Positions 11,648 to 44,161 of a stretch of 64,000 nucleotides of DNA are shown piece after piece. A program made the position numbers and the translations under genes. The DNA is from a bacterium (GTDB taxonomy: Bacteria > Desulfobacterota > Binatia > HRBIN30 > CADEER01). The stretch spans positions 372,001-436,000 of the forward strand of contig JAHBUY010000005.1 in assembly GCA_019637795.1 (NCBI GenBank), given 5' to 3'. The notes beneath the pieces are model-generated. The model was not told the origin of the DNA. It ran no database searches and saw only the letters and a list, made by a program, of their open reading frames with translations. Each line of letters starts with the position of its first letter. Position 1 is the first letter of the stretch.

Positions 11648-13428
11648 GCCTGCAACCCGGCGAGGTGGGCGCGCCCCCAGGCGGCGAGGGCGAGCGTCAC
11701 CTTCTCGTAGCGCGGCAGGGTCACCTTGCCGCCGCCGAAGACGTCGAAGTGCCGGGCTTCGATGCGCCGCAGCAGGCGCTCGTAGATCAGGCGCATGGCC
11801 TCGGCGGGCGCCAGCGCGGCGCGATCCTCGGGCGCCAGGGCGCCGCCGGCGCGCAGGTAGTAGGCGCGCGCCCGGCCGCACTCGAAGGCCAGCAGGGCGC
11901 CGACGCGCGGCGAGTAGCGGCCGGAGAGCAGGTCCGCCTCGCGGCAGTCGAAGCGGCGCAGGTCCTCCAGCGGCAGGTAGAGGCGGCCGCGCGCCGCGTC
12001 CTCGGTCACGTCGCGCAGGATGTTGGTGAGTTGGAACGCGACCCCGAGGTCGACGGCGTAGTCGCGGGCGCTCGGCTGGCGGTAGCCGAAGATCTCGATG
12101 CACAGCAGGCCGACGGTGGCGGCGACGAGGTAGCAGTACTCGTGCAGCTCGTCGAAGGTCGCGTAGCGCCGGCGCGTCAGGTCGAGCTCGACGCCGCGGA
12201 TGAGGTCGAGGAAGCACTGCCGCGGCAGCGGAAAGCGACGCACCGCGTCGGCCAGCGCGCGGCCGATCGGGTGCGTCGGGGCGCCCTCGTAGAGGCGCGT
12301 CAGCTCGTCGCGCCAGCGCCCGAGCAGCGCCGCCGGATCGCGCCGCGCGGCGTCGTCGGCGATGTCGTCGACGAAGCGACAGAAGGCGTAGACGGCGCAC
12401 AGCGCCTCGCGGCGCGGCGGCGGCAGCAGGCGGAAGGCGTAGAAGAAATTGCTCGAGCTGCGGCGCGTCACCTCGGCGCAGTAGGCATAGGCCTCGGCGA
12501 GCTGCGGATCGCGCGCCAGCGGCGGCGTGGCGAGCAGGCGGCGCGGCGGCTCGCGGCGCAGCAGGGCGCGCAGGATCAGCGCGGCCTTCTGGCGCCGCGG
12601 CACCGTCGGGCGGGCGTCGACGACGGCGAAGTCCTGCGCCGCGATGCGGGCCAGGATCGCCAGTCCGCCCCAGGCGAACAGGCGCACCTCGCGCCCCAGG
12701 CGCGGCGCGACGCGGTCGGCGAGCGGCAGGCCGTCGAGCAGATAGCCGCGGGCGCGCGCCACCTCGGCGCGCAGGACGGCTTGCAGCGGCGCGCGCATGG
12801 CGGGCGCCCGCAGTGCCGCCGGATCGACGCCGTGCGCGCGCAGCACGTCGAGGGGCAGATGGACGCGGCCGCGTTCCGCGTCGACGCCGACGTCCTGGCA
12901 GAAGTTCGCGAGCTGCAGGCCGATGCAGAGCTGGTCGGCGAGCGCCTGGCGCGCGGCGTCGGCATGACCGAAGAGCGCCAGCACCAGGTGGCCGACCGGC
13001 GCCGCCGAGTCGCGGCAGTAGTCGATCAGCTCGTCGACGGTCGCGAAGGGCGTGAACGCGGCGTCGCGGCGGAAGGCGCGCAACAGGCGGCGAAACGGCG
13101 CCAGCGGCATGGCGAAGCGCCGCACGGTATCGGCGAGGGCGACGAACACCGGCGTGTCGGCCGTGCCGGCGAAGCAGGCCTCGAGCTGGCGCTCCCAGTC
13201 GTCGAGCCGCGCCAGACGGATCGCCGCCGGCGCCTCGCCCTCGTCGGCGAGGTCGTCGGCGCCGCGCGCGAAGGCGTACAGCGCGGCGAGCGGCCGGCGC
13301 AGATGGCGCGGCAGCAGCCACGAGCCGACGGTGAAGTTCTCGTAGTGCCCCGCCGCCAGGCGGAGGCAGTGCTCGTAGGCGGCCTCGAGCGACGGCGCCG
13401 CGGGCGGCGAGGAGTCCGCTCCGGTCAT
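11644..13428 (-). CDS. hpnCD: Fused HpnC-HpnD squalene-forming synthase
   Basis: A single 594-aa frame holds two squalene/phytoene synthase domains with no stop between them. Residues about 10-280 match HpnC: NFTVGSWLLPRHLR, first Asp motif DDLADE near 58 and second motif DVGVDAERGRVHLP near 179. Residues about 315-594 match HpnD: SSSNFFYAFRLLP, DDIADD near 354 and DVTEDAARGRLYLP near 472. In most hopanoid producers these are separate neighbouring genes: HpnD makes presqualene diphosphate and HpnC converts it to hydroxysqualene. Here both domains keep their Asp motifs. ATG overlaps the stop of shc (ATGA). Two genes with a non-ATG internal start remain possible. Confidence 0.9.
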   Translation of the reverse strand: MTGADSSPPAAPSLEAAYEHCLRLAAGHYENFTVGSWLLPRHLRRPLAALYAFARGADDLADEGEAPAAIRLARLDDWERQLEACFAGTADTPVFVALADTVRRFAMPLAPFRRLLRAFRRDAAFTPFATVDELIDYCRDSAAPVGHLVLALFGHADAARQALADQLCIGLQLANFCQDVGVDAERGRVHLPLDVLRAHGVDPAALRAPAMRAPLQAVLRAEVARARGYLLDGLPLADRVAPRLGREVRLFAWGGLAILARIAAQDFAVVDARPTVPRRQKAALILRALLRREPPRRLLATPPLARDPQLAEAYAYCAEVTRRSSSNFFYAFRLLPPPRREALCAVYAFCRFVDDIADDAARRDPAALLGRWRDELTRLYEGAPTHPIGRALADAVRRFPLPRQCFLDLIRGVELDLTRRRYATFDELHEYCYLVAATVGLLCIEIFGYRQPSARDYAVDLGVAFQLTNILRDVTEDAARGRLYLPLEDLRRFDCREADLLSGRYSPRVGALLAFECGRARAYYLRAGGALAPEDRAALAPAEAMRLIYERLLRRIEARHFDVFGGGKVTLPRYEKVTLALAAWGRAHLAGLQA

Positions 13429-15407
13429 GCCGCCGGTGGCGCCATCGCGCCGCCCAGGCGCTGGCGCGCGCCGCCGAGGGCCATGAGCGGGAAGTAGTTC
13501 CGGTACATGTCGTAGCGCAGGTAGAAGTGGCGCGGAAACCCGGTGCCGGTGAACAGGGTCTCGTCCCACTGCCCGTCGGCGCGCTGCCGCTCGAGCAGGT
13601 AGTCGACGCCGCGCTGCACCGCCGGCGAGACGCCGTCCTCGCCGGCGAGCAGGCCGAGGATCGCCCACGCGGTCTGCGACGGGGTGGAGGCGCCGCGGCC
13701 GGCCAGGCGCTCGTCGTCGTACGACGCCATCGTCTCGCCCCAGCCGCCGTCGGCGTTCTGTCGCGCCCGCAGCCAGGCGACGGCACGGCGGATGTGGGCG
13801 GCGTCGAGGTCGTCGCCGATGGCGCGCAGGCCGGCCAGCGCCGACCAGGTGCCGTAGATGAAATTGCAGCCCCAGCGCCCCCACCAGGCGCCGTCGGCGC
13901 GCTGGCTGCGGAGGAGGAACTCGCGCGCGCGGCGGGCGCGGTTGAAGCGCAGGTCGTGGCCGTAGGCGCCCATCATCTCGAGCAGCCGGCCGGTCAGGTC
14001 CTCGGTCGGCGGGTCGATCATCGCCTCCATGTCGGCGAACGGGATCTGGTTGAGGAAGGCGCGGTCGTTGTCGGTGTCGAAGGCCCCCCAGCCGCCGTTG
14101 CGGCTCTGCATGCCGAGCACCCAGTTGAGGCCGGCGGCGATGGCGCGATCGGCGCGCCGCGGCTCGGCGTGGGCGATGCGCTTGAGCACCATCAGGATGA
14201 CGGCGCTGTCGTCGACATCGGGGTACCAGTCGTTGGCGAATTCGAACGCCCAGCCGCCGGGCTCGAGGTCGGGGTTGTAGACCGACCAGTCGCCGGGGAC
14301 GAGGATCTGGTTGGCGATCAGCCAGTCGGCGGCGCGGCGCAGCGCCGGGTGATCGCCGGGCACGCCGGACTCGAGCAGCGCCTTCGCCATCAGCGCGGTG
14401 TCCCAGGTCGGGGAGACGCAGGGCTGGAAGAAGAGGTGATCGCCGTCGGCCATGACGAAGTCGTCGATCGCCTGCAGCCCCCTGGCGACTGCCGGATGCG
14501 AGTCGGCGTAGCCGAGGGCGCGCAGGGCCATGACGCAGTTCACCATCGGCGGCTGGATGCCGCCCCAGCCGCCGTTCACGTCCTGGCGGTCGAGGATCCA
14601 GCGCTCGGCGCGCGCCAGGGCGCGCCGGCGCAGCGGCTTCCACGGGCTGCGACCGAGCACCTTCAGCGTCCGGTCGAGCGCCAGGAAGGCGTTCCGCCAG
14701 CTCAGCCACTGGCGGCTGCGCGGATAGGCGAGCGCGGCCGCGGTCGGCGGCTCGAGCCACAGCTCCGCGATCTCCTCCTCCGGCGCGATGGCGATGCGCG
14801 GCCGCTTCGCCATCAGGATGGTGAGCGGCACGACGGTCTCGCGCGCCCAACTCGACAGGGCGTAGATGTTGATCGGGCACCACGGCGGCAGGAGCACCAG
14901 CTCGACCGGCATCGCCGGCAGGCCGCTCCACGGGAACTGCCCGAAGTACGCGAGGAAGGTGCGGGTGAAGACGCCTGCCCTGGCGAGGCCGCCGTGGGCG
15001 CGGATGAATTCGCGGGCGCGGGTCAGCGCCGGTTCGTCGGCGGCGAAGCCGGCGAGCTTGAGCGCGAAATAGGCCTCGATGGTATCGCTGAGATGGCCGG
15101 GACCGCCGGCGTACAGCGGCCAGCTCCCGTCGTCGCTCTGGGTCGCCAGCATGTGGTCGACGATGCGGCGATCGATGCGCGTCGGCTGCCGTCCCATGAA
15201 GCGGTTGAGGAACAGGTACTGGGCGTCCATCGAGACGTTGGCCTCGAGCGGCGCGTGCCAGTAGCCCTCGCGGTGCTGTTGGCGCAGGAAGGCGGCCTGG
15301 CTGCGGGCGATGGCGGCGTCGAGGCGCTCCAGCGGCGCCGTCGCGGCGGCGCCGCGCGCGCGGCTAGCGTGGCGCGCGCCGGTGAGCATCGGGCTGGCGT
15401 TGGACAT
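13425..15407 (-). CDS. shc: Squalene-hopene cyclase
   Basis: The 660-aa length is normal for the family. The catalytic acid motif is present as DVDDSAV near residue 398 (family DXDDTA), and several QW repeats are seen: QDVNGGWGGIQPP, QSRNGGWGAFDTDND and QNADGGWGETMASYDD, the last near residue 560. The enzyme cyclises squalene to hopene/diploptene in or at the membrane. It sits between fni and hpnCD. The start (MSNASPML) lies inside the 3' end of fni, overlapping by 44 nt; a second Met at 15389 would still overlap. Also known as hpnF. Confidence 0.97.
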   Translation of the reverse strand: MSNASPMLTGARHASRARGAAATAPLERLDAAIARSQAAFLRQQHREGYWHAPLEANVSMDAQYLFLNRFMGRQPTRIDRRIVDHMLATQSDDGSWPLYAGGPGHLSDTIEAYFALKLAGFAADEPALTRAREFIRAHGGLARAGVFTRTFLAYFGQFPWSGLPAMPVELVLLPPWCPINIYALSSWARETVVPLTILMAKRPRIAIAPEEEIAELWLEPPTAAALAYPRSRQWLSWRNAFLALDRTLKVLGRSPWKPLRRRALARAERWILDRQDVNGGWGGIQPPMVNCVMALRALGYADSHPAVARGLQAIDDFVMADGDHLFFQPCVSPTWDTALMAKALLESGVPGDHPALRRAADWLIANQILVPGDWSVYNPDLEPGGWAFEFANDWYPDVDDSAVILMVLKRIAHAEPRRADRAIAAGLNWVLGMQSRNGGWGAFDTDNDRAFLNQIPFADMEAMIDPPTEDLTGRLLEMMGAYGHDLRFNRARRAREFLLRSQRADGAWWGRWGCNFIYGTWSALAGLRAIGDDLDAAHIRRAVAWLRARQNADGGWGETMASYDDERLAGRGASTPSQTAWAILGLLAGEDGVSPAVQRGVDYLLERQRADGQWDETLFTGTGFPRHFYLRYDMYRNYFPLMALGGARQRLGGAMAPPAA

Positions 15408-16515
15408 CGGGCTCCTCGTCGAGACGTGGGTGGGGCGAGCGGGCGGCGCGTACCCACGCCGCGAGGCGTGGGCCGAGCAGCAGCGGTTGGCGGGCCAGCG
15501 CGCGCAGCGATGCGGCGCCGGTGAGCAGCATGACGGCGCGCAGCTCCTGCCGCCGCGCCTCGAGCCAGGCCGCGGCGGCCGCGATGCCGCCGTCGCCGTA
15601 GGCGCGGAAGACCGGCAGGGCGGCGCCGGCGAGATCAGCGCCGAGCGCCAGCGCCTTCGCGATCTCGACCCCGGTACGGACGCCGCCGCTGGCGATGCGC
15701 TGCAGTCCCAGTCCGTCGAGCATGAGCAGCGACGCGGCGGTCGGGATGCCCCAGCCGGCGAGCGCCTCGCCGAGCGCCTGACCGTCGCGGTCGGCGCGCA
15801 GCGCCTCGACGCGCACCCACGAGGTGCCGCCGGCGCCGGCGACGTCGACGATGCCGACGCCGGCGTCGCGCAGCGCCTCGCCGACGGCGCGCGAGATGCC
15901 GCAGCCGGTCTCCTTGGCGATCACCGGTACCGGCAGCTCGCGGCACAGGCGGCGCAGCGCCGCGAGCCCGCCGCGGAAATCGCGGTCGCCCTCCGGCTGG
16001 ATCAGCTCCTGGGCGGGGTTCAGGTGCAGGCAGACGGCGTCGGCGTCCACCGCCTCGACGAGCGCGGCGACGGCGGCGGTCGACTGTCGTGCCGCCTGCG
16101 TCAGGCCGAGGTTGGCGAGCAGCGGCACCGACGGCGCGACGGCGCGCACCCGGAAGGTGTCGGCAGCGCCCGGGTCGCGTTGCATCACCCGCTGGCTGCC
16201 GAGGCCGAAGGCGACGCCGGCGCGTTCGGCGAGCGCGGCGAGGTCGCGATTGATGCGCCCCGCGTCCTCGGTGCCGCCGGTCATGCCGCTGATCAGCAGC
16301 GGCGTCCGCAGCCGCTTGCCGAGGAAGGTCGTCGAGCAGTCGATCTCCGCCAGCGCCAGCTCCGGCACCGCGTTGTGGATCAGCTCGACCTCCTCGAAGA
16401 GCGTCGTCTTCAGGGCGTGCTCGACCGGCTGGGTGCGGCAGAGGGCCAGGTGCGACTGTTTGCGGTCGCGCAGCGCGGCGCCGACGCCGGCCGAGGTCGT
16501 CCACGCCGTGCTCAT
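15364..16515 (-). CDS. fni: Type 2 isopentenyl-diphosphate delta-isomerase
   Basis: The 383-aa protein is an FMN-dependent TIM-barrel enzyme that interconverts IPP and DMAPP. Seen are RKQSHLALC, LLISGMTGGT near residue 75, FGLGSQRVM, HLNPAQELIQPEGDRDF near 155, VIAKETGCGISR near 185 and a terminal SGGVRTGVEIAKALALGAD phosphate-binding part. A tail of about 25 polar residues (HPRLDEEPDVQRQ) lies beyond the usual end and is where it overlaps shc. The ATG overlaps the stop of mvaD (ATGA). Its place here supplies DMAPP for farnesyl diphosphate and squalene. Confidence 0.96.
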   Translation of the reverse strand: MSTAWTTSAGVGAALRDRKQSHLALCRTQPVEHALKTTLFEEVELIHNAVPELALAEIDCSTTFLGKRLRTPLLISGMTGGTEDAGRINRDLAALAERAGVAFGLGSQRVMQRDPGAADTFRVRAVAPSVPLLANLGLTQAARQSTAAVAALVEAVDADAVCLHLNPAQELIQPEGDRDFRGGLAALRRLCRELPVPVIAKETGCGISRAVGEALRDAGVGIVDVAGAGGTSWVRVEALRADRDGQALGEALAGWGIPTAASLLMLDGLGLQRIASGGVRTGVEIAKALALGADLAGAALPVFRAYGDGGIAAAAAWLEARRQELRAVMLLTGAASLRALARQPLLLGPRLAAWVRAARSPHPRLDEEPDVQRQPDAHRRAPR

Positions 16516-17477
16516 GCCGCCTGCACCACCGTCGCGCCGGCGCCCGGCGCGGCGCAGATGAGCCGCGCGACGCCGGGCGTCTCGACCAGCGCCGCCGCCA
16601 CCGCCGCCGCGGCGTCGGGCGGACAGAGCGCGGTGACGTGCGGTCCGGCGCCGAGGGTGAAGTACACCGCCTGTCCCGCGGCGCGCAGCGCGCGCACCCG
16701 CTCCACGACTGCCACGGTGCCGGGCGCCCAGCCGAGAATCGCCGGCGTCGCCGCCAGCGCGACGGCGCGCGCCTTCAGGCAGTGGTGCTCGATCAACCCG
16801 CCGAGGCGTTCGAGATCGCGCGCGCGCACCGCCGCGCGCGCCGCGTCGAGGTCGTCCTCGTGTCCCTCCAGCCAGGCGGGGAAGAACGGCGATCGCTTCA
16901 GCGCGTGCGCGTCGGCAGGCGGCGCCGTCGCATCGACGACGGCGATCAGCGCCGCCAACGACCAGTGCGCCGGTGGCGCCAGCGGCTCGGCGTAGCAGTC
17001 GGAACCGTCGCCGAGCTCGCCGCCGACGCCTTCCACGAAGCCGCCGAACACGGAGCGCGCCGCCGAGCCGGTGCCGCGCCGCGCCAGCATCGAGAGCTGC
17101 CGGGGCGCCGTCGGCAGCTCGAGGGCGACGCTGCCGGCGAGCGCCAGTGCCGCGAACGTGGCGGCGGTCGCCCCGATGCCGGACGTGCGCCCGGTCGCGA
17201 TCGACACCGCGCAGGGCGTCGTGCGCCCGGCGCATCGGCGCAGGAGGTCGATGAACCCGCGCAGCCGCTCGCCCATCGCCCCGGCGGCTGGGCGATCGTT
17301 CACCGTCAGCTCGTCGTGGCGCAGATCGCGTCGGGCCTGCCAGCGGACCGTGCTCTCCAGCCGATCGAGGGTCAGCGAGAGGCTGCCGGTGTAGGGCAGG
17401 TTCAGGGCCGGTTCCCGCATCCCCCAGGACTGGATCAGGGGAACGTTGCCGTAGGCTCGAGCGACCACTTCTTCCAT
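16512..17477 (-). CDS. mvaD: Diphosphomevalonate decarboxylase
   Basis: The 321-aa product is a GHMP-fold protein with the diphosphomevalonate decarboxylase signature GSAARSVFGGFVEG near residue 135 (family SGSACRSLxGGFVxW) and an N-terminal Y-G dipeptide followed by LP.TGSLSLTLD. It would turn mevalonate diphosphate into IPP with ATP use. The classical mevalonate pathway is uncommon in hopanoid-making bacteria. The other pathway genes are not in the window. Three dyad sites lie within 120 bases upstream, the nearest 2 bases before the ATG. Phosphomevalonate decarboxylase is a close alternative that sequence reading alone cannot exclude. Confidence 0.88.
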   Translation of the reverse strand: MEEVVARAYGNVPLIQSWGMREPALNLPYTGSLSLTLDRLESTVRWQARRDLRHDELTVNDRPAAGAMGERLRGFIDLLRRCAGRTTPCAVSIATGRTSGIGATAATFAALALAGSVALELPTAPRQLSMLARRGTGSAARSVFGGFVEGVGGELGDGSDCYAEPLAPPAHWSLAALIAVVDATAPPADAHALKRSPFFPAWLEGHEDDLDAARAAVRARDLERLGGLIEHHCLKARAVALAATPAILGWAPGTVAVVERVRALRAAGQAVYFTLGAGPHVTALCPPDAAAAVAAALVETPGVARLICAAPGAGATVVQAA

Positions 17478-21334: not shown

Positions 21335-21501
21335 ACGGGCTTTGCACAGAAAGCCCACGGTCGAACCCAATCAGCGCCGGTCGGTTGTTAGCTGTTGGGC
21401 TGTTCGCTGTTGAGGGCCGCAATTCTCAGGCCCTAACAGCGAACAGCTCAACAGCGTAACAGCCTCACGTGAGACGCGACGGGTTCATGTGCAAAGCCCG
21501 T
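21335..21501. repeat. Nested palindromic intergenic element, copy B
   Basis: The gap between the thiolase and kinase-like genes is filled by a nested inverted repeat. Outer arms at 21335-21348 (ACGGGCTTTGCACA) and 21488-21501 are perfect over 14 bp. Inner arms at 21383-21418 and 21429-21464 pair over about 36 positions with small bulges and consist of GCTGTT-like units; the loop is about 10 nt. Arrangement and unit sequence are like copy A at 9101-9244. Confidence 0.82.
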
Positions 21502-22934
21502 CACGCCGTGTCGACCACCCGGTCGAGCGCCGCGAGCAGATCGACGCCGCTGCTGCGCAGCTCGCGGATGACCCCCGCCTGGTCCGGCGTCACGTGTCCG
21601 AACTGGCCCTCGAGCAGCAGCTCGGCGTAGCCGATGATGACGTCGAGCGGCACCCGGAAGCGGTGCGAGAGGCCGGCGATGAGCTCGGACTTGAGGCGCG
21701 TCGTCTGCGACAGCTCCTCGGCGAGGCGCGCGTTCTCCAGCGCCAGGGCGGCGAGGTCGGCGATGCCCTGGGCGACCTGCGACTGCTCCTCGCCGAACAC
21801 CCGACCGCCGCTCTGCACGCCGGCGACCACCAGGCCGAGCTCGGCGCCGTTGCGATGCAGCGGCACCAGCAGACAGCGGCTGAGGCCGTGCCCGTAGCTG
21901 GCGGGCGGCGCGAAGAGCTCGTTGGCCTCCACCACCACGCCGCCGTGGCCGTTGCGGCGGCTGAACAGCGACACCAGCCGGGTGCGCGGCAGGCGCGCCT
22001 CGCGCGGCGGCGCGGCGTGCTGGCGCAAGGCGCCGTGCGAGGCGACGGGGACGTACACGTCGGTCGCCGGCTGCCACACCCACGCCTGGCCGACGTCGCA
22101 CCCCAGCACCTCGACGATGAGCTGGCAGCAGCCGCGCACCAGGTCCGGGAGCTGCCCCTGGCGCAGCTCGAGCGGCGCCCGCGAGGCGTCGAGGGCGCGC
22201 AGGTCGATGACCCCGTTGATCACCGCCAGCAGCTCGCGCGCGCCCTGGTCCATGCGCCGCAGGGTGTCGAGCTGGTCGCGGTTCAGATAGCCGAACGCGC
22301 CCTCGAGCAGCAGGTCGGTGTAGCCCATGATGACGTGCAGCGGCGTCCGCAGCTCGTAGGACATGCCGGCGACCAGATCGGAGCGGCCGCGGTGCACCTC
22401 GTCGATGGCCGCCAGCAGGCGCTCGTTCTCGCGCGCGATCGCCGGCAGCTTCATCACGAACCAGGCGCCGCGATCGTGCGAGCGGTCGAGCTCGATGCGG
22501 CCGCCGTGCGCCGCGGCGATGGCCTGGGCGCTCGCCAGGTCGGCCTCGAGGCCGCGGTCGGTCAGCGCGACGTCGTCGCGGTTGAGCATCGCCTCGGCGT
22601 CCTCGGCCCGCAGGCGCGGCCCGTCGTTGCCGATGGTGAGGGTCAACCATTCGCCGTCCATGCCGGTGCGGCAGAGGATGAGCCCGCCGCGCCGCGAATG
22701 CTTGACCGCGTGGCGCAGCATGCGGCCGACCCCGAACTCGAGCTGCGCGCGGTCGGCCCAACTGAGCGGCAGGCCGGGATCGAGATCGAGGCCGGTGCCG
22801 AGGCGCTTCACCGCCATCGCCGGCTGATATTGCTCGAGCAGATCGAGCACCACCTTGTTCAGCGATGCCCACTGCGGCAGCAGATGCAGCGTCTCCCGGT
22901 GCTCCACTCCGTACCCCGCGCCCTGAGTCCTCAC
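21501..22934 (-). CDS. Permuted, degenerate histidine-kinase-like protein with GAF domain
   Basis: The 477-aa soluble protein has an unusual order. Residues about 45-155 look like a worn HATPase_c domain (QLEFGVGRMLRHAVKHS, TIGNDGPRL, AAAHGGRIELD...GAWFVMKLP) without the glycine-rich ATP lid. Then comes a HisKA-like helix pair (GMSYELRTPLHVIMGYTDLL, near 185) with Tyr at the phospho-histidine site, a GAF domain (about 255-400), and a second HisKA-like pair (GLSHRFRVPLDVIIGYAELL, near 430). No standard catalytic domain follows. It probably senses or scaffolds rather than phosphorylates. Confidence 0.75.
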   Translation of the reverse strand: MRTQGAGYGVEHRETLHLLPQWASLNKVVLDLLEQYQPAMAVKRLGTGLDLDPGLPLSWADRAQLEFGVGRMLRHAVKHSRRGGLILCRTGMDGEWLTLTIGNDGPRLRAEDAEAMLNRDDVALTDRGLEADLASAQAIAAAHGGRIELDRSHDRGAWFVMKLPAIARENERLLAAIDEVHRGRSDLVAGMSYELRTPLHVIMGYTDLLLEGAFGYLNRDQLDTLRRMDQGARELLAVINGVIDLRALDASRAPLELRQGQLPDLVRGCCQLIVEVLGCDVGQAWVWQPATDVYVPVASHGALRQHAAPPREARLPRTRLVSLFSRRNGHGGVVVEANELFAPPASYGHGLSRCLLVPLHRNGAELGLVVAGVQSGGRVFGEEQSQVAQGIADLAALALENARLAEELSQTTRLKSELIAGLSHRFRVPLDVIIGYAELLLEGQFGHVTPDQAGVIRELRSSGVDLLAALDRVVDTA

Positions 22935-24986: not shown

Positions 24987-25334
24987 TCAGCGCGCGGCGC
25001 CGACGAAGCGGCGGGCGCGTTCGACCAGCGCCGCCGCGGCGGTGAAGTCGAGCCCGCCCGGCTCCGCCGCCAGCCGGCGGCGCAGCGCCAGCGCCTCGTC
25101 CAACCACTCGCTGGGCGCCTCCTCGATCTCGGGCAGGGCGGCGTAGGCGGCGGCGACGCGGACGTGGGTGCGCAGCCGCAGCCCGCTCTCGTTCAGCCGC
25201 GCCTTGGCGGCGTAGAGGATGGCATAGAAGGCGCGCCCCGCGGCGATGTCGGCGGCGCCGGCGGTCAGCGCCGCCTCGGCCGCGGCCAGGGCGCGCGTCG
25301 CCTTGGCCAGGAGCGTGTCGGTGCCGGGCCGCAT
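24987..25334 (-). CDS. HEPN-domain protein
   Basis: The 115-aa helical protein has the HEPN-type order: LLAKATRALAAAEAAL, GRAFYAILYAAKARLNESGL near residue 34, LRTHVRVAAAYAAL near 55 and a helix pair at the end. An Arg/His pair is present (R..TH near 55), similar to the region where HEPN RNases keep their Rx4-6H motif, but the spacing here is shorter, so RNase activity is uncertain. It begins 8 bases after the YhaN-like ATPase gene, so it belongs to that operon. No nucleotidyltransferase (MNT) partner lies next to it. Confidence 0.75.
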   Translation of the reverse strand: MRPGTDTLLAKATRALAAAEAALTAGAADIAAGRAFYAILYAAKARLNESGLRLRTHVRVAAAYAALPEIEEAPSEWLDEALALRRRLAAEPGGLDFTAAAALVERARRFVGAAR

Positions 25335-25342
25335 CGGCCGCC

Positions 25343-28300
25343 TCAGAGCTCGACGACGCGGGCCGCGTGGCCGGCGCGGACGAGCAGATCGCGGGTCGAC
25401 GGATGGCAGGTGAAGAACAGCACCTGGTGGCGTTGGGCGACCTCGCCGAGCACCCGCGCCATCGCCGCGGCGCGCTCCGGATCGAGGTTCACCAGCACGT
25501 CGTCCATCACCAGCGGCAGCGCCGTGCCGCGCCGCGCCAGCTCGCCGGCCAGGCCGAGGCGGACCGCCAGGTAGAGCGCCTCGGCGGTGCCGCGGCTGAG
25601 GTCGCCGCCCGCCTGCTTCACCAGGCCGCCGCGCTCGACCACCACCAGCGCCGCCGCGCGTTCGTCCTGGGCGACGCGTTCGTAGCGCTCGCCGGTGACG
25701 GTGGCGAAGGCGCGCGACGCCTCGCGCAGGACCGCCGGCTGCCGCGTGCGCTCGAACTCCTGCTCGGCCTCCTCGACGAAACCGGCCGCCGCGACCAGCA
25801 CCCGCCAGTCGCGCACCGCCTCCTCGAGCTCGGCGGTCAACGCCGCCCACTCGAGCTCCAGCGTCGGCACCTCGTCGGCGCGCTCGAGCGCGGCGCAGGC
25901 GGCGCCGGCGGCGCGCCCGGCCGCGTCCGCGGCGTCCAGCTCGCGCTCGCGCTCGGCGAGCACGGCGTCGGCGTTCGCCGCCAGGACCTCCCATTCGCCG
26001 ACCGCGCCGCGCGCCAGGTCGTCGAACGCCTCCGGCCAGGTGACGCGCTCGGCGACCAGCGCCTCGCGTTCGGCGACCACCCGCTGCAGTTGCTGCCGCC
26101 GCGCCGCCGCCGCCCGCCGCTCCAGCAGGTCCTGCTCGTCGCGCACGCCGCTGCGCGCCAGCACCGCCGTCAGCTCGCGTTCCGCCTGATCGAGCGCCTC
26201 GCTCGCCACCGCGAGGCGAAGCGCGCGCTCGCGCACCTCGGCGTCGAGCGCGGCGCGCCGCTGGCGCAGCGGCGCCTGCTCCTGCAGGCGGGCGCGCAGG
26301 CCGACGATGCGCTCGACCAGCGCCTCGCCGCCGCCGCTGGCGTCGCCGAGGCGCGCCAGCACGGCGCGGGCGCGCGTCTCCCACGCCGCCACCATCGGCT
26401 CGAGCTGGCGCCGTTCGCGCTCCGCGGCATCGTGCGCCAGCAGCGCCTCGTGCGCCGCCTGCAGGCGGGTGACGCGCTCGAGCACCAGCTCCGGATCGAC
26501 CGCGCCGCGGACGCCGGCGCGCTCCACCCAGGCGCGCCACTCGATCTCGCCCTCGTCGCGCGCCGCCTCGGCCGCCAGGCGCTCGGTCTCGCGCGCCGCG
26601 TAGGCCTCCTCGGCGCCGCGCAGGGCCGGCTCGAGGCTGGCGAGCTGGGCGCGCGCGCCGCCGTCGCGCACCCGCGCCGCGTCCTCGGCGTCGAGCCCCG
26701 CGGCCGCGGCGTCGCAGTCGGCCAGAGTCGGCGCGCGCGGCAGGCCGAGGGCCTCGCCGTCGCGCGCGATCTGCTCCGCCAGCTCGGCGGCGGCGTGCCA
26801 GGCCTGATCGCGGCCGCGGCGGGCCGCTTCGAGCTCGCTGCGCAGGACGCGGCGCGCCCGCTCGCGATCGCGACGCCGGCCGAGCGCCGACCGCCGCTGG
26901 CGGCCGACATGGATCGCCCCGGCGGCGAGCGCGACCGCGGCGCTCGCTCCCAGGGTCGCCGCCGGCATGCTGCCCATGGCGCTCCACAGCGTCGCCAGGA
27001 CCGTCGCCGCCGCCAGCAGCGCCAGCAGCGGCGGCAGCCACGCCACCGGCACCGCGTCCCGCTCGGCGTCGAAGGCGCGCAGCACCTGCTCGCGGTCGAA
27101 CACGGTCTGCGCCATGCCCTCGCCCCGCGACCGCTTGTCGAGCATGGCCACGACGGCGCTCCGCAGCGCGTCGAGCGCCTGGCGGCGCGCCTCCACCGCC
27201 TCGGCCGGCAGCGGCGGGCGCGCCGGCAACTGCGCCGTTGCCGCCTCGTACTGCTCGCGCAGCGAATCGCGGTGGCGCTGCGCCGCCTCGGCGCGCAGGG
27301 CGGCGGCGCGGGCGCGCTCGTCGTGGCGCTTCAGCCGCACCTGCCAGTCGCGCACCTGCTCGCGATCGACGCCGAGCCGACCCCACTCGCGCACCGCCGC
27401 CTCGGTTCCGGCGTCGTCGAGTCGCTGCAGGCGGGCGCGCATCGTGGCGGCCGCCTCCTCGGCGCGGGCGCGCGCCGCCGGCAGGGTGGCGAGCTGGAAG
27501 CGGTGCAGCGTCAGATCGCCGCAGAGGGCGTCGATCTCCGGCGCCAGCGCCGCGGCGCCGTCGTCCGGCGGCAGCAGGCCGCGCTGCGCCTCCGCCGCCG
27601 CCTGTTCGGCGCGCAGCGCGTCGAGGGCGCCGCGCGCCGCCAGCAGACGCTCGCGGGCGCGCTGCAGCTCGCCCGCGACCTCGGGCGGCGGCACCGGCAG
27701 GGCGACGATCGCGGCGAGCTCGGTGCGCGCGTTCTGCAGCGCGTCCCACAGTGGCCAGGCGCGCAGCAGCGCCGCGGCGCGCTGGCGGCGCTGCCGCTCG
27801 ACGGCGAGACGCTCGCGCAGCGCGGCCGCGTGGGCGGCGGCGGCCGCCGCCGCCGCGCGCTGCCGCGGATACTCCTCCGCCGCCCGGCGGGCGGCGGCGA
27901 GCCGCGGCCGCAGGGCGTTGAGCGCGGCAATGCATGCGCCGATCTGCGCCGCGCCCGTCTCATCCAGCCGCCGCGCCGCCTGGGCGCGCAGCCGGGTCAG
28001 CGCGGCGCGCGCCGAGCGCCCGGCGCCGGCCAGGCTGGCCGAGAACAGCGCCTCGCTGACCGCCGCCTCGTCGAGGCCGGCGAGCGACTGCAGGTCGTCG
28101 AGGGCGATGGCGAAGACGGCGCGGAACAGCTTCTCGTCGGCGCCGCCGAGCAGCCGCGCCAGATCGGCAGCGCCGCCGAGCGAGCCGTCCGGGCGCGTCA
28201 CCTGCAGCGCGGCGTGGGCGAAATCGCGGGCGATGACGTAGGCGCCGTCGCCGCCCTCGACGCGCAGCCGACCGCGATAGGCGCCGCCGCCGAGCGGCGC

Positions 28301-28480
28301 GTACGACACGCCGGCGCCGTTCGACAGCGGCCCGAAGAGCGAACGGCGGAGGAACTCGAGCAGCGTCGTCTTGCCCGCCTCGTTGGCGCCGTGCACCACC
28401 GTCAGGCCGTCGGGCAGGCGATCGACGGCGCTGTCGCGCAGCGCCCCGAAGCCGTCGATCTCCCAGCCGCGGATCTTCAT
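25343..28480 (-). CDS. YhaN/Rad50-like SMC-type ATPase
   Basis: The 1045-aa protein starts MKIRGWEIDGFGALRD and has Walker A GANEAGKTTLLEF near residue 35. A very long Arg/Glu/Ala-rich coiled-coil region spans about 180-930, broken near 500 by two hydrophobic segments (WLPPLLALLAAATVLATLW and ATLGASAAVALAAGAI), as in YhaN. The C-terminal part has the ABC-type signature LSRGTAEALYLAVRLGLA and Walker B LPLVMDDVLVNLD, then FFTCHPS. Such ATPases pair with an Mre11/SbcD-type nuclease in DNA end handling; here the partner gene (4-nt overlap, ATGA) has lost its metal site. Confidence 0.92.
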   Translation of the reverse strand: MKIRGWEIDGFGALRDSAVDRLPDGLTVVHGANEAGKTTLLEFLRRSLFGPLSNGAGVSYAPLGGGAYRGRLRVEGGDGAYVIARDFAHAALQVTRPDGSLGGAADLARLLGGADEKLFRAVFAIALDDLQSLAGLDEAAVSEALFSASLAGAGRSARAALTRLRAQAARRLDETGAAQIGACIAALNALRPRLAAARRAAEEYPRQRAAAAAAAAHAAALRERLAVERQRRQRAAALLRAWPLWDALQNARTELAAIVALPVPPPEVAGELQRARERLLAARGALDALRAEQAAAEAQRGLLPPDDGAAALAPEIDALCGDLTLHRFQLATLPAARARAEEAAATMRARLQRLDDAGTEAAVREWGRLGVDREQVRDWQVRLKRHDERARAAALRAEAAQRHRDSLREQYEAATAQLPARPPLPAEAVEARRQALDALRSAVVAMLDKRSRGEGMAQTVFDREQVLRAFDAERDAVPVAWLPPLLALLAAATVLATLWSAMGSMPAATLGASAAVALAAGAIHVGRQRRSALGRRRDRERARRVLRSELEAARRGRDQAWHAAAELAEQIARDGEALGLPRAPTLADCDAAAAGLDAEDAARVRDGGARAQLASLEPALRGAEEAYAARETERLAAEAARDEGEIEWRAWVERAGVRGAVDPELVLERVTRLQAAHEALLAHDAAERERRQLEPMVAAWETRARAVLARLGDASGGGEALVERIVGLRARLQEQAPLRQRRAALDAEVRERALRLAVASEALDQAERELTAVLARSGVRDEQDLLERRAAAARRQQLQRVVAEREALVAERVTWPEAFDDLARGAVGEWEVLAANADAVLAERERELDAADAAGRAAGAACAALERADEVPTLELEWAALTAELEEAVRDWRVLVAAAGFVEEAEQEFERTRQPAVLREASRAFATVTGERYERVAQDERAAALVVVERGGLVKQAGGDLSRGTAEALYLAVRLGLAGELARRGTALPLVMDDVLVNLDPERAAAMARVLGEVAQRHQVLFFTCHPSTRDLLVRAGHAARVVEL

Positions 28481-29700
28481 CGGTCGCCGTCGCCGAGCAC
28501 GAGGGCGTCGATCGCCACCGCCGCCGCGTCGTCGAGCAGCGGATCGACGTCGCGCGGATCGAGGGCCGCGCTCCAGGTGTCGCGCAGCGGCTCGAAGCGC
28601 TGCTGCACGAAGCGCAGCGTGCGCTCGGCGTCGCTGGCCAGCACGGCGCGGCGGCGCGCGACCTCGCCCGGCAGGTCGTCGGCGGCGGCCGGCAGCGGGC
28701 CCGGCGGGGCGGCGCGCAGCGCCGCCCACCACAGCAGCGGATCGTCGCGCTCGGCGTCGCGGCGCGCCTCGGCGAGCAGGGCGGCGCGCAGGTCCGGCTG
28801 GCGCGCCAGGCGGGTGACGCGGGCGCGCGACCCGAGCAGCGCCGTCAGCAGCAGCACGTGCTCGGGATGGGCGGCGCGCAGCGCCGCCGCGGCGTCGCGC
28901 AGGCGCTGCCGCAGGGCCGCGCCATCGTCGGCCTCGTCGATCCGCACGACGGCCGCGCGGACGCGATCGAGCGGCTCGAGGCCCACGCGGGCGATGACGC
29001 CATCCTCGACCTCGACCAACGCGGCGCCGCGCGGACCCACGTCCTGCGGGCTGCGCCCCTGCGGCGTCCCGGCGCTCACCAGCCACGGGTCGCGCGCGTG
29101 CTGCACCGCCAGCTCGGCGCCGCCGCCGAGCGCCCAGTAGTCCATGCCGGCGTCGCGCAGCGCGTCGAGCGCGACCCCGCCGCGCCCGACCGGGCTCGGC
29201 AGCAGGGCGATGTGCGGCCCGGCGAGATCGCCTCGGCGCAGCCGGCGGGCCGCCAGCTCGGCCCCCTCCTCCGGATCGATGCCGACGCCGTGCACGGTGG
29301 CGAGATGCGCGCCGTCGCGACGCAGCGGCACGGCGTCCGCGCGTCCGTGGCCGAAGACCACGACGCCGTCGGGCCAGTCGTCGATAGCGGCGAAGCCGTC
29401 CCGCGGATCGCGGGCGGCGAGGGCGATGAAGACGGGGATGCCGTGTTCGACCAGACGGGCGACGCCGTCGCGCAGGCGCACCTGCGCGCGCGCGCCGCGT
29501 TCCAGCCCATCGCACAGGCCGCCGCTGAGCAGCACGGCGGCGACCCGGCGGCTGATCGCGGTCGCCACCAGCGCGTCCCAGGCGTGCAGCGAGGCGTCGC
29601 GCAGCGCCGCCGCCAGCGGCGCCGGCGTCCGGCCGACGCCGGTGAACGGCGCGTCGAGGCGCAGGTCAGCGGCGTGCAGAAACGCGTACCGAGCGGTCAT
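28477..29700 (-). CDS. YhaO/Mre11-like calcineurin-fold protein with lost metal site
   Basis: The 407-aa protein aligns by eye with YhaO/SbcD: FLHAADLRLDAPF at the start, DYWALGGGAEL near residue 175 and SAGTPQGRSPQDVGPRGAALVEV near 195. The metal-binding residues are replaced at every motif: DLH to DLR, GD..D to GGLCD (LLSGGLCDG), GNHD to AARD, LLH to LLP, and GHxH to GGGA. The fold seems kept while catalysis should be gone. It overlaps the ATPase start by 4 nt. It could serve as a DNA-binding or regulatory subunit. The ATG at 29700 is preceded by about 100 bases of non-coding DNA. Confidence 0.85.
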   Translation of the reverse strand: MTARYAFLHAADLRLDAPFTGVGRTPAPLAAALRDASLHAWDALVATAISRRVAAVLLSGGLCDGLERGARAQVRLRDGVARLVEHGIPVFIALAARDPRDGFAAIDDWPDGVVVFGHGRADAVPLRRDGAHLATVHGVGIDPEEGAELAARRLRRGDLAGPHIALLPSPVGRGGVALDALRDAGMDYWALGGGAELAVQHARDPWLVSAGTPQGRSPQDVGPRGAALVEVEDGVIARVGLEPLDRVRAAVVRIDEADDGAALRQRLRDAAAALRAAHPEHVLLLTALLGSRARVTRLARQPDLRAALLAEARRDAERDDPLLWWAALRAAPPGPLPAAADDLPGEVARRRAVLASDAERTLRFVQQRFEPLRDTWSAALDPRDVDPLLDDAAAVAIDALVLGDGDR

Positions 29701-29864: not shown

Positions 29865-30671
29865 ATGAGCAGCGAGCAGCGCGGCAACGGCAGGCGGGCG
29901 TGGGTGACGGGCGCCTCGGTGGGGATCGGCGCCGCCTTCGCGCGGCGCCTGGCGCGCGACGGCTACGACCTGGCGCTGGTGGCGCGCCAGGCGCGGCCGC
30001 TCGAGCGGCTGGCGGCCGAATTGGAGGCGGCGCACGGCATCCACGCCCGGGCGGTCGCCGCCGACCTCACCGACGCCGCGGCGCTGCGCGAGGTCGAGCA
30101 CGCGGTGGCGCACGACCCCCACCTCGCGCTGCTGGTCAACAACGCCGGCTTCGGCACCATCGGCGCCTTCGCCACGCTGGACGTCGACCGCGAGGAGAAC
30201 GAGATCCGCCTCAACGTGGTCGCCCTCACGCGCCTCGCCCGCGCCGCGTTGCCGGGCCTGCTGCGGCGCCGGCAGGGCGGCATCATCAACGTCTCCTCGA
30301 TGGCCGGCTTCCAGGCGGCGCCGTTCAACGCCACCTACGGCGCCACCAAGGCGTTCGTGAACAGCTTCACCGAGTCGCTGCACGAAGAGCTGCGCGGCAG
30401 CGGCGTGCGGGTGATGGCGCTCTGCCCGGGCTTCACGCGCACCGAGTTCCAGGAGCGCGCCGGCATCGACGCCAGCGGCATTCCGTCGCTCGCCTGGATG
30501 AGCGCCGAGGCGGTGGTGGAGGCGGCGCTGCAGCGCTATCGGCGCGGCGACGTGGTGTGCGTGCCCGGCTTCGGCAACTGGACGATGAGCGGCCTCGCCG
30601 CCGCGCTGCCGCGGGCGCTGGTCCGGCGCATCATGGGCGCCGCCGCCGGGCGCGTGCTGCAGCATCGATGA
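29865..30671 (+). CDS. Short-chain dehydrogenase, DltE/YqjQ-like group
   Basis: Starting at MSSEQRGNGRRAW the product has 268 aa. TGASVGIGAAFARRLA binds the cofactor; an Arg in LVARQARPLERLAAELE suggests NADP(H). NNAGFGTIG near residue 90, NVSSMAGFQAAPF near 143 and YGATKAFVNSF near 156 give the catalytic set. The C-terminus has a hydrophobic, basic tail (ALPRALVRRIMGAAAGRVLQHR). The substrate is unknown. It is followed after 16 bases by the next dehydrogenase gene, probably one operon. Confidence 0.9.
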   Translation: MSSEQRGNGRRAWVTGASVGIGAAFARRLARDGYDLALVARQARPLERLAAELEAAHGIHARAVAADLTDAAALREVEHAVAHDPHLALLVNNAGFGTIGAFATLDVDREENEIRLNVVALTRLARAALPGLLRRRQGGIINVSSMAGFQAAPFNATYGATKAFVNSFTESLHEELRGSGVRVMALCPGFTRTEFQERAGIDASGIPSLAWMSAEAVVEAALQRYRRGDVVCVPGFGNWTMSGLAAALPRALVRRIMGAAAGRVLQHR

Positions 30672-40347: not shown

Positions 40348-40421
40348 GCGCCCATAGCTCAGTTGGATAGAGCGTCTGACTACGAATCAGAAGGTCGCAT
40401 GTTCGAATCATGCTGGGCGCG
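40348..40421 (+). tRNA. tRNA-Arg (anticodon ACG)
   Basis: A full cloverleaf is visible: acceptor GCGCCCA at 40348-40354 pairs with TGGGCGC at 40414-40420; anticodon stem TCTGA/TCAGA with loop CTACGAA, giving anticodon ACG; T-arm GCATG-TTCGAAT-CATGC. The 5' part (to 40377) is chromosomal and the rest lies in the att repeat, so integration kept the gene whole. CCA is not encoded. Confidence 0.95.
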
Positions 40422-40454
40422 CTCTTGGGAGCCCTTGCGGCGCAAGGGCTCCCG
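40378..40454 (+). other. attL (77-bp direct repeat, left)
   Basis: The repeat starts GACTACGAATCAGAAGG in the anticodon arm of tRNA-Arg and ends after the tRNA terminator (GGGCTCCCG). It is identical over 77 bases to 47917-47993. The bases flanking it differ between copies. Confidence 0.93.
40427..40453 (+). terminator. tRNA-Arg terminator within attL
   Basis: GGGAGCCCTTGC at 40427-40438 pairs perfectly with 40442-40453 around a GGC loop (12-bp stem), followed by GGCCTTTCC. The same hairpin is present at 47966-47992 in attR. Confidence 0.7.
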
Positions 40455-40493
40455 GCCTTTCCGCGGGCTGGGGCTCAGCGCCGACGGATTGCC

Positions 40494-40516
40494 TGGGTAA
40501 GCACTAGGTAAGCACC
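40494..40516. repeat. Paired GGTAAGCA motifs near attL (possible integrase arm sites)
   Basis: GGGTAAGCACTAGGTAAGCA carries GGTAAGCA twice, 12 bases apart. The same 20 bases occur at about 47766-47785 close to attR, inside the element, and a changed copy (GGTGAGCACCAGGTAAGCAC) follows attR at about 48029-48050. Placement near both ends fits arm-type binding sites of a tyrosine integrase. Confidence 0.5.
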
Positions 40517-40538
40517 CGGCGCCGTTTCGCGGCCCTCG

Positions 40539-40856
40539 TCAGGCACCGCTCGCGTAGATCGTGACCACCTCAGGCAACGGCCCGCCGCTGGCGGGGGTGA
40601 TGACGGCGCGGAAGGCATAGCGCCCGCCGCGCGCACGCACGATGATGCCGGCGCCGCTGTGCGAGGGGCGCGGCGCCCGCCCGCGGGCGACCAGCTCGTC
40701 GCGAATGGCGGCGCGCGCCTCCTCAAGACTCAGGCCGGGCGCGATGCGGGCACAGAACTGGCGCGCCGCGTGCTCGGTCACGTGCACGCCCCGTTGCCGA
40801 GCGAGCGCCCAGAGCGCCGCCGCCTCGCGGTCGGGCAGCGCGCCGCGCTCCTTCAT
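40539..40856 (-). CDS. Unknown 105-aa element protein
   Basis: The start MKERGALPDREAAAL is set by the 4-nt overlap with the recombinase stop (ATGA). The protein is helical in the first half (VHVTEHAARQFCARIAPGLSLEEARAAIRDEL) and probably beta-rich in the second (IIVRARGGRYAFRAVITP). I do not recognise a family with certainty; the helical-then-strand layout is like small RelE- or phage-associated proteins, without decisive residues. It is the last gene before attL. Confidence 0.6.
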   Translation of the reverse strand: MKERGALPDREAAALWALARQRGVHVTEHAARQFCARIAPGLSLEEARAAIRDELVARGRAPRPSHSGAGIIVRARGGRYAFRAVITPASGGPLPEVVTIYASGA

Positions 40857-41545
40857 GCCGCCTGCCCCGACCGCCGGCGCTGCGCGATGCCGCGCACCGT
40901 CTCGGCCGCCCACGGCCGCCCGGTGCGGGTCGGCACGCCCTCGGCGTTCAGGCGGTCCGCGATGGCCTGGAAGCTGAGGCGCTCGCCGCCCTTCGGCTTG
41001 CGTCGCAGCTTGAGGATGTAGGCGACCACCTCGGCCTCGCCCGGCTTCGCGCCGAACGGCTTGCGGCCCTCGCAGCGGCCTTCAGCGCGGCGCTTGCGGA
41101 CGCGCGCGGCTTTGAGTTTCGAGACGATGACGGCCTTCTCAAACTGTGCCACGGCGCCGAGCACCTGGCGAATCAACGTGCGGGTCGGGTCATCGTCGCC
41201 GGCGGTCAGCTCGGTACCGCTGTCGGCCGCGATCACCTTGACGCCAAGGTCCCGGAACTGGCCAAGGATGACTTCGCCGACCAGCAGGTCGCGCGCCACG
41301 CGGTCGGCGCGCTCGACGATAACCACGCGCACGCCGTTGGAGCGGATGCGCGCCAGCAGCTCGGAGAGCCCTTCGCGGTCCTCCAGCTCTTTCGCGCCGC
41401 TCACGCCCTCGTCGCGGTACTCGCCGACCAGCTCGAAGCCCGCGGCCCGGGCGTAGCGCACGACCGCCTCGCGCTGGCGCGGGAAGCCGTCGCCGTCCAC
41501 CTGCCCCTTGCCCGAAACCCTCAGGTACGCCACCGCCTTTGCCAT
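40853..41545 (-). CDS. Serine recombinase (resolvase/invertase type)
   Basis: From MAKAVAYLRVSGKGQ, with GGAGCG five bases upstream, the product has 230 aa. The nucleophile is Ser11 in LRVSGKGQ; EYRDEGVSGAKELEDREGLSELLARI and VIVERADRVARDLLVGEVIL with conserved arginines follow. After the catalytic domain (to about 140) comes KAARVRKRRAEGRCEGRKPFG and a short helix-turn-helix-like recombinase part (SFQAIADRLNAEGVPTRTGRPW...TVRGIAQR). It is small, not of the large integrase type. It could resolve dimers or invert DNA; its site is unknown. The integrase of the element is a separate protein. Confidence 0.92.
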   Translation of the reverse strand: MAKAVAYLRVSGKGQVDGDGFPRQREAVVRYARAAGFELVGEYRDEGVSGAKELEDREGLSELLARIRSNGVRVVIVERADRVARDLLVGEVILGQFRDLGVKVIAADSGTELTAGDDDPTRTLIRQVLGAVAQFEKAVIVSKLKAARVRKRRAEGRCEGRKPFGAKPGEAEVVAYILKLRRKPKGGERLSFQAIADRLNAEGVPTRTGRPWAAETVRGIAQRRRSGQAA

Positions 41546-41559
41546 CGTCGCTCCCATGC

Positions 41560-41626
41560 GATTCGCTGCGATTCCCCTTCTGTATACGAGCGAATCCTGG
41601 GAGTGTCAACAGTGATTCTGTAGAAT
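41560..41626 (-). promoter_or_regulatory. Dyads upstream of serine recombinase (possible res site/promoter)
   Basis: GATTCGCT at 41560-41567 and its inverse at 41589-41596 flank a GTATAC palindrome (41582-41587); ATTCT/AGAAT at 41615-41619/41622-41626 form another dyad. The segment is richer in A/T than its surroundings. It lies directly before the recombinase gene, where resolvase sites often are. Confidence 0.35.
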
Positions 41627-41726
41627 TATTGCCCCTCGTCGAGCGCTGCAGATGTCGCCGGCCGCCCTGCGACGCTGCGACAGTGCGACCGCTCGCCGGC
41701 GCCGGGTTGCGCCCGGCTGCTCGCGG

Positions 41727-41894
41727 CTACCGCCGCCAGTCCGCGCCGCAGCGTGGGCACTGCGCGGCGATCGGTTCTCGGAACGGCTGCTGTAGCGTCA
41801 GTCCACAACGCCGGCACTGCAGCTCGACGCAGCCACCGCGCACGGTCAGCGCCAGGGCGCCTCCATGGGCGGCCACGCGATCGGGCAGTGTCAT
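41727..41894 (-). CDS. Small zinc-ribbon protein (55 aa)
   Basis: This short gene reads MTLPDRVAAHGGALALTV and has two cysteine pairs, CRRC near residue 27 and CPRC near 46, spaced as in a zinc ribbon, then GADWRR at the end. Its ATG overlaps the stop of the HGG-motif gene (ATGA), as elsewhere in this operon, which supports that it is real. Com-like zinc fingers of phages have a similar size and layout; function is otherwise unknown. Confidence 0.7.
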   Translation of the reverse strand: MTLPDRVAAHGGALALTVRGGCVELQCRRCGLTLQQPFREPIAAQCPRCGADWRR

Positions 41895-42283
41895 GGGCGG
41901 CCACGCCTGGCGGTCGCCCGCAGCGCCTCCACGTCGACGCCAGGCGCCGGAGGCATGCCGCGCCGGAAGTAGCCGAGCAGCGCCCTCGCCGCCTGCCGCT
42001 GCACCACGGCCGCCGCGCTGTATTCGCCGTGCTTCCAGGCATTCTGGTTTCCCAACGGGGCGCCGCTACCGTGCGCGCCGCCGTGCATCCGGCAGCGCCC
42101 CCGGCCGCGCACCCGCGGTGCTCGGCATGGCGTCCCCGTCCGCGTCTGCGCTTCGCAGCGTGGCGCCGTCGACGGGTCGCCAGTGGGATTGCCGTGGCGC
42201 AGCCAGCCGCGCCGTCTGTGGGATGGCGGTGTGTGGGGCCGCGGTCGCGGTGCATGGGGTTGTTCGTCAGCCTTGCTCGTCAT
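41891..42283 (-). CDS. HGG-motif phage-associated protein
   Basis: The 130-aa protein has a low-complexity basic N-terminus (about 40 residues) followed by CEAQTRTGTPCRAPRVRG and CRMHGGAHGSG, then GNQNAWKHGEYSAAAVV. This Cys...Cys...C-x-MHGG...NAWKHG pattern is known from many small proteins of prophages and integrative elements, often near terminase genes; their role is unclear. The start overlaps the upstream gene by 17 bases, so a start further in is possible. Three cysteines and a His could bind zinc. Confidence 0.75.
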   Translation of the reverse strand: MTSKADEQPHAPRPRPHTPPSHRRRGWLRHGNPTGDPSTAPRCEAQTRTGTPCRAPRVRGRGRCRMHGGAHGSGAPLGNQNAWKHGEYSAAAVVQRQAARALLGYFRRGMPPAPGVDVEALRATARRGRP

Positions 42284-42923
42284 CCCCCCGCCCCCTCGGC
42301 GCCACGTTGCCGACGACGGCTTGCCCGCCGGCCTGCACCGTGACGTGCTCGACGCGCACCGTCTGCTGTCCCGTCTGCCCGCGCAGCCGCGCGAGCGCCT
42401 CCAACTGCCGCGTGTAGACGTTCATCAGCTTCGCCGACAGGTTGCTGTACGTCGCCAGGAAGTCGACGCGGTCCGTCTTGAGCGCCCGGCGCGCCATCGA
42501 CAGCGCCAGGTTGTGGGCGGCGACCATTTGCACCGCTAGCATTCCCTCGGCTTCGTCGCGCGGCCCGATACCGGCGAGCAGTGCCATGGCGGTGTTGCAC
42601 TTGTCGGCGAGCGCCGCGCTTTCGGTCGCCAGCGCCGCTTGGCCCATCAGCCACTCGGCCGCCGCTTCCTCGCTGGCGCCGACCGTCCGCGCGACACGCG
42701 CGACGAACAGTGCCGAGCCGGAATCGTCCGCCGGCGACACCGCCTCGCTGCCGTCGGCCTTCTTGGCGGCCTTGAAACGCGGCGGGCGCGGTCGGCTCGC
42801 CTGGCGCGCCGCGAAGGCCTGCACCTCGGCGCGCTCGGCGTCGGTCAAGGGCGGCGGGCACGCTGAGGGGACCGCGGGCGCCAGGTCGGCGCGTCGCGCG
42901 CGCTGCCGCCGTCGAGCGCTCAC
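42267..42923 (-). CDS. Unknown helical element protein (218 aa)
   Basis: The GTG start overlaps the stop of the primase-polymerase-like gene (GTGA). After a basic start come helices (LTDAERAEVQAFAARQA; ASEEAAAEWLMGQAALATESAALADKCNTAMALLAGI) and a segment MLAVQMVAAHNLALSMARRAL...RVDFLATYSNLSAKLMNVYTRQLEALARLRG, ending VRVEHVTVQAGGQAVVGNV. The last part, with a motif of the kind EHV.V..GGQA, is shared by proteins of phages and integrated elements with no known role. It may bind nucleic acid; this is inference. Confidence 0.65.
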   Translation of the reverse strand: MSARRRQRARRADLAPAVPSACPPPLTDAERAEVQAFAARQASRPRPPRFKAAKKADGSEAVSPADDSGSALFVARVARTVGASEEAAAEWLMGQAALATESAALADKCNTAMALLAGIGPRDEAEGMLAVQMVAAHNLALSMARRALKTDRVDFLATYSNLSAKLMNVYTRQLEALARLRGQTGQQTVRVEHVTVQAGGQAVVGNVAPRGRGDDEQG

Positions 42924-43747
42924 CGCCGCGCTCCAGCGCCGCGTAGCATCGCCGTCCGCGGTCCGTGGCTGCTCCGCTCGCAGCAGACACGTAGGGCGCC
43001 GTCCGGGAATGCGATGGCGTACGGTCCGCCGCCGTCGTGCTCCTCGCCCGTCCACGGGCAGCGCCGCAGCGTGTAGACCGTGCCGCCGTGGATGCTCGGC
43101 CGCTCGCGCACAGTATCGCACCGGGCGAGCACCTCGCTCGCCGTCTCGCCGAGCGGGCGCGGCGGTCCCGTGTACGCTGGCGCTGGCCGCGGCGGGCGCA
43201 GCACCGCGGCCAGCGTGCAGGCAGCGGCGGTGCAGTCGGCGAGCGGGCGCAGCTCGCCGAGCGGCGCCCCGGTGAGCGCGAAGAACCGCCGCCCGGCGTA
43301 CAGCTCGACGCCGCGCTCGTCATCCTTCGCCGAGACGCGGAATGCCGGGCCGGCGAGGAAGTATGCCTTGCAGCCCGTCCCTGACGGCGAGCGCTCGACA
43401 TAGGTCGGGAAGTAGCCGAGCAGACGGCGCGCCAGGTCAGACAACGTGCCGTCCTCGGCGCGGCAGCGGTCGAGGTCGAGCCCACCCACGCCCCAGCCGA
43501 GCGCGACGCCGAGCCCGTAGCCGCAGCGCTGCGCGAGCGGCGCGGCGCGCTCGAAGTCGAGCCACCGCCGCTCGTCGTGCCCCGTGACTGGGTAGCCGGC
43601 CGGCGCGCACGGCGACTTGACCGGTTTGCCGCCCGGCTTGCGCGGCGGGAACGTGCGCCAGAGCAGATAGCGGCGCCCGAGCGCCGGGAGCCCAGCCCGG
43701 GCGAGCGCCTCCGCGTCGAAGTCGAGCGCGACCGTCGGCGCCGTCAC
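42920..43747 (-). CDS. Primase-polymerase (bifunctional DNA primase/polymerase N-terminal)-like protein
   Basis: The GTG at 43747 is chosen as start because it overlaps the previous stop (GTGA); this gives 275 aa, with an ATG at 43771 as alternative. Family signs are WRTFPPRKPGGKPVKSP near 30, GLGVALGWGVGGLDLDRCR near 85 with the DxD metal motif, YVERSPSGTGCKAYFLAG near 120 and GVELYAGRRFFALTG near 145. The usual His of the SGTG.H motif is Lys here. No helicase domain is attached; the RepA-like ATPase in the same element may take that part. The C-terminal 80 residues have Cys/His pairs. Confidence 0.78.
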   Translation of the reverse strand: MTAPTVALDFDAEALARAGLPALGRRYLLWRTFPPRKPGGKPVKSPCAPAGYPVTGHDERRWLDFERAAPLAQRCGYGLGVALGWGVGGLDLDRCRAEDGTLSDLARRLLGYFPTYVERSPSGTGCKAYFLAGPAFRVSAKDDERGVELYAGRRFFALTGAPLGELRPLADCTAAACTLAAVLRPPRPAPAYTGPPRPLGETASEVLARCDTVRERPSIHGGTVYTLRRCPWTGEEHDGGGPYAIAFPDGALRVCCERSSHGPRTAMLRGAGARR

Positions 43748-44148: not shown

Positions 44149-44161
44149 CGGTCCTCCGTTT

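Follow-up and report, generated by a model that had tools for sequence, protein, structure and literature searches.

What is left of an Mre11-Rad50-type complex once its nuclease subunit has lost the residues that hold metal, and does a neighboring protein take over as effector? The question is raised by three minus-strand genes of the window, the 64,000-nucleotide stretch of DNA analyzed here. They encode a degenerate Mre11/SbcD/YhaO-like subunit of 407 aa (28477 to 29700), a YhaN/Rad50-like coiled-coil ATPase of 1,045 aa (25343 to 28480; PF13514 AAA_27, 44.6 bits), and a protein of 115 aa (24987 to 25334). The original prediction took them to be coupled and the third to be a HEPN protein, and both points held: the first two genes share a 4-base ATGA overlap, the third follows after 8 bases, and its product matches PF05168 (24.9 bits, cut-off 22).

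An Mre11-like protein without its metal site

The 407-aa protein alone had no Pfam match. Profile and pairwise searches retrieved YhaO/SbcD-type relatives from the same phylum, Paenibacillus, an actinobacterium, and Mesorhizobium, and Foldseek paired its structure model, of moderate confidence (pLDDT 71), with E. coli SbcD and further Mre11 structures (E = 3e-12). By homology and by its phosphoesterase fold, the protein descends from the Mre11/SbcD/YhaO family. The Mre11/SbcD nuclease uses eight ligands spread over motifs I to V, and alignment with intact homologues revealed that seven of the eight are replaced. Motif I (ADLRLD, 29653 to 29670) keeps Asp12, the only remaining ligand, and carries Arg14 where histidine is usual. 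The aspartate of motif II has become Gly61 (SGG, 29518 to 29526), as it has a glycine in all five degenerate proteins known to us from this analysis. Motif III reads AARD in place of GNHD (29407 to 29418; Asn to Ala96, His to Arg97), motif IV reads ALLP in place of GLLH (29197 to 29208; His to Pro168), and motif V reads LGGGA in place of LGHVH (29116 to 29130), with both histidines exchanged (Gly193 and Ala195). All these motifs lie on the minus strand. The predicted loss of metal ligands is therefore real in the alignment, and the idea that the ligands are present but shifted was rejected, since the metal columns themselves are replaced.

Complete sets of eight ligands were found in 31 of 31 membrane-type homologues compared. 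The ligands are likewise complete in the soluble-type homologues compared and are kept in 40 further loci of the same phylum. Outside the family, about 95 homologues were checked, and the site is kept in all but one remote and marginal Mre11-like match (L054, genome G044, 1024 to 2772), in which motifs I and III are partly degenerate (GDMLIG and GERD). Each of the four sister-genus genomes available (G001 to G004) has an orthologous degenerate gene with the same columns replaced, and the loss is therefore shared and old. Seven or eight of the eight ligands are replaced across the five degenerate proteins. The columns lost in all five include 6 of the 8 ligand columns and 4 of the 41 other conserved core columns (Fisher P = 4e-4). 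Ligand columns are lost far more often than the rest of the conserved core, which marks the active site as the target of the loss; neither general decay nor a shift in the alignment accounts for it.

Descent of the pair and selection on it

The five degenerate pairs group together within the membrane-type family as a single clade (support of 100/99 in the subunit tree and 99 in the ATPase tree). The tree software flagged long branches, and the two halves of the clade, window and sister genus, were left out in turn; whichever was omitted, the other still attached beside the same relatives. A long-branch artefact was rejected on these trees, and the common origin of the clade stands because the placement survives the omission of either half.

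Pairwise comparisons between sister-genus species (four genomes) gave dN of 0.3 to 0.55 and dS of about 1 to 1.5, values at which synonymous sites are near saturation and dN/dS ratios are rough. The same four genomes have no stop or frameshift in about 1,430 codons, and length is nearly constant. Reading frames are full length in all five genomes carrying the pair, the window genus being represented by one. Even with rough ratios, the uninterrupted frames and constant length argue for selection on the pair, and these codon comparisons indicate that both genes are under purifying selection. Within the sister genus, the degenerate ATPases are 50 to 60% identical, against 48 to 51% for the ATPase of an active soluble paralogue, while the Mre11-like subunit evolves faster than its active counterpart (45 to 58% against 66 to 71% identity). 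That the metal site is lost and both genes are nonetheless selectively kept suggests repurposing as a DNA-holding scaffold.

An intact ATPase with a predicted membrane hairpin

The original prediction that the ATPase keeps its motifs was borne out by alignment: Walker A (GANEAGKT, 28367 to 28390), the ABC signature (LSRGTAE, 25580 to 25600), and Walker B (LPLVMDD, 25499 to 25519), all on the minus strand, are intact, as in YhaN/Rad50-type ABC ATPases. The sister-genus proteins have a degenerate Walker A (SDDVDRKD, SSEETRKN, and similar) and no signature, and a Walker B-like PVVMDE remains. The nuclease was lost first, because its loss is common to both genera and that of the ATPase is confined to the sister genus. 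Judged from these motifs, relatives, window genus, and sister genus mark successive steps in the change from enzyme to pseudoenzyme.

A hydropathy scan predicted a transmembrane hairpin in mid-chain (residues 477 to 525; 26906 to 27052, minus strand). One or two mid-chain hydrophobic segments were found by hydropathy in nearly every membrane-type ATPase, whether degenerate or active, and in none of the soluble type; by this hydropathy measure, the window ATPase belongs with membrane-type YhaN. In the Rad50-like architecture, mid-chain corresponds to the apex of the coiled coil, where the zinc hook of Rad50 sits. Since the hydrophobic hairpin falls at this apex, membrane anchoring of the ATPase is likely.

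The HEPN gene and the genomic surroundings

Homologues 38 to 48% identical to the window HEPN protein are encoded in the sister genus, in the order SDR, HEPN, histidine kinase, sufTUS. The flanking genes are orthologues of the window SDR (29865 to 30671) and histidine kinase (21501 to 22907), and sister sufT, sufU, and sufS match window positions 1903 to 2451, 1361 to 1807, and 105 to 1364, respectively; for L074 and L076, the contig holds just part of this block. In the window, the degenerate pair lies between SDR and HEPN; its place in the sister genus is a different one, between rph-rdgB and speA, a locus that the window genome possesses without the pair. The speA loci of outgroups are not accompanied by rph-rdgB. 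The pair and the HEPN gene occupy separate loci in the sister genus and therefore moved independently. Adjacency to HEPN was observed in one of the five genomes with a degenerate pair, at no homologous locus outside the window, and beside none of the active membrane-type pairs examined, so that the three genes do not form a conserved cassette. Of the expectation that related genomes would show the same residue losses in the same three-gene order, the losses recur in four of four sister genomes and the order does not, HEPN being elsewhere. The HEPN protein is probably an incidental neighbor that lies outside the complex.

The 115-aa protein lacks the Rx4-6H motif of HEPN RNases and has a single histidine, His57. 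In the HEPN-T branch, an upstream histidine and the basic residue of the motif (Arg) were proposed as an alternative active site (PMC3710099). His57 and Arg85-87 are at matching places, and the protein may therefore be active; its single-sequence structure model is weak. With HEPN-T (PF05168) of the AF0298 type it shares the family match and the His/Arg pattern, but the window gene has no adjacent MNT nucleotidyltransferase with which to form an MNT-HEPN toxin-antitoxin pair: its neighbors are the ATPase and SDR genes, and its status as a component is putative. Two genomes of the same order carry MNT-HEPN pairs, each beside RAMP-type (type III CRISPR-like) genes (L077, 5636 to 6351; L078, 4641 to 5374).

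The defense role that the original prediction allowed for found no counterpart in the surroundings. The neighbors of the three genes encode SDRs, a thiolase, a ChsH2-like protein, a histidine kinase, and a 3-hydroxyisobutyrate dehydrogenase-like protein, a metabolic context. Neither the two small proteins (407 and 115 aa) nor the eight neighbors matched any defense model, and the ATPase gave general ATPase-head matches only (best, mad3, 2e-11), so that no known antiphage system was recognized. Elsewhere in the window, translations inspected by eye resemble an integrated element at 40348 to 47710 (tRNA-Arg, then resolvase, primase-like genes, a RelBE-like pair, and a tyrosine integrase), a HicA/HicB-like toxin-antitoxin pair at 49173 to 49597, and a hopanoid biosynthesis-like run at 9285 to 17477, with a squalene-hopene cyclase-like protein at 13425 to 15407.

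Alternative explanations

The original prediction had combined the three genes into a DNA-end sensor whose effector could be the HEPN protein, acting as an RNase in defense or stress. The 8-base gap does suggest cotranscription with the ATPase gene, and the histidine and arginines are suitably placed for the HEPN-T site, but a gene that has its own synteny apart from the pair in four sister genomes, is missing beside the active pairs examined, lacks Rx4-6H, and has no defense neighbors makes such a sensor very improbable; synteny and neighbors led us to reject HEPN as the effector. That the pair is a pseudogene pair on its way out is very improbable. It would explain the missing catalytic residues and the faster evolution of the Mre11-like subunit, but not why five deeply diverged genomes still have full-length frames, why dN/dS is well below 1, or why the core outside the active site is conserved. 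Decay is already contradicted for the sister genus, and we rejected it on the frames and dN/dS.

Could the dead pair instead bind and regulate an active YhaO-YhaN or SbcCD complex? An active soluble paralogue that has every ligand does exist in the sister genomes (L027 to L030), but in the subunit tree this belongs to the distant soluble type, and neither a second YhaO-YhaN pair nor a soluble active paralogue was found in the window genome, which makes a regulatory subunit unlikely. What that genome does have is a different Mre11-like gene: one run (L119, G000:C1, 6104 to 13787) encodes a SNF2-type helicase, an intact Mre11-like nuclease, and an SMC-like ATPase, the latter two without a PADLOC match. 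A rearranged metal site or a different chemistry might still make the protein an enzyme, and the retained Asp12 and the residues invariant in the degenerate clade (Trp41, Trp206, and Trp376) speak for this. It is very improbable, as no replacement set of His/Asp is conserved at the site in the five proteins and the aspartate changed to Gly61 in five of five is the bridging one.

Proposed working and comparison with known systems

The reading to which we give about even chances has the two proteins form a YhaO-YhaN (Mre11-Rad50-like) complex of the membrane type. Its nuclease would have been off since the family ancestor, and it would be kept for a nonnucleolytic job, as a DNA clamp or tether that is gated by ATP and anchored in the membrane. 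The ATPase heads would be held at the membrane through the transmembrane hairpin at the coiled-coil apex and would close on DNA with ATP, while the Mre11-like subunit would be a structural, DNA-binding base that couples the heads and does not cut; the whole may then act as an ATP-gated clamp on DNA or as a membrane tether. With ATP hydrolysis lost too, the sister-genus complex would be no more than a fixed scaffold. More tentatively, a complex of the Mre11-Rad50 type that gave up nuclease activity first and, in the sister genus, ATPase activity afterward may persist as an enzyme-free membrane-bound scaffold holding DNA or other partners.

The nearest kin in the trees are membrane-type YhaO-YhaN pairs (Paenibacillus L017/L018; phylum loci L120 to L126), which share gene order, overlap, length, Mre11 fold, and a coiled-coil ATPase with a mid-chain hydrophobic hairpin, but keep eight of eight ligands where the window protein has lost seven. 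SbcD-SbcC and Mre11-Rad50 are alike in subunit fold and ABC head motifs; unlike them, the window pair has no metal site, and a predicted membrane hairpin replaces the zinc hook region. Such an evolutionary step has its closest precedent in the B-subunits of eukaryotic DNA polymerases, inactivated calcineurin-like phosphoesterases of the same superfamily that were turned into scaffolds (PMC4996933), although these form a separate lineage and their partner is a polymerase rather than an SMC-like ATPase. In the papers that we searched on pseudo-nuclease Mre11 and membrane YhaN, with many subscription journals outside the coverage, no pair of this kind is described.

The role of Mre11-Rad50 complexes beyond cutting is a long-standing question that is usually approached with mutants. 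Here, evolution seems to have run the experiment in steps, from active relatives to a pair with the nuclease lost and the ATPase intact (window genus) and then to one with both lost (sister genus), with reading frames intact. If true, the scaffold reading would mean that the structural and catalytic roles of an Mre11-Rad50-type complex have come apart in nature. The finding also points to a wide and almost unstudied membrane-type branch of the Mre11-Rad50-like family.
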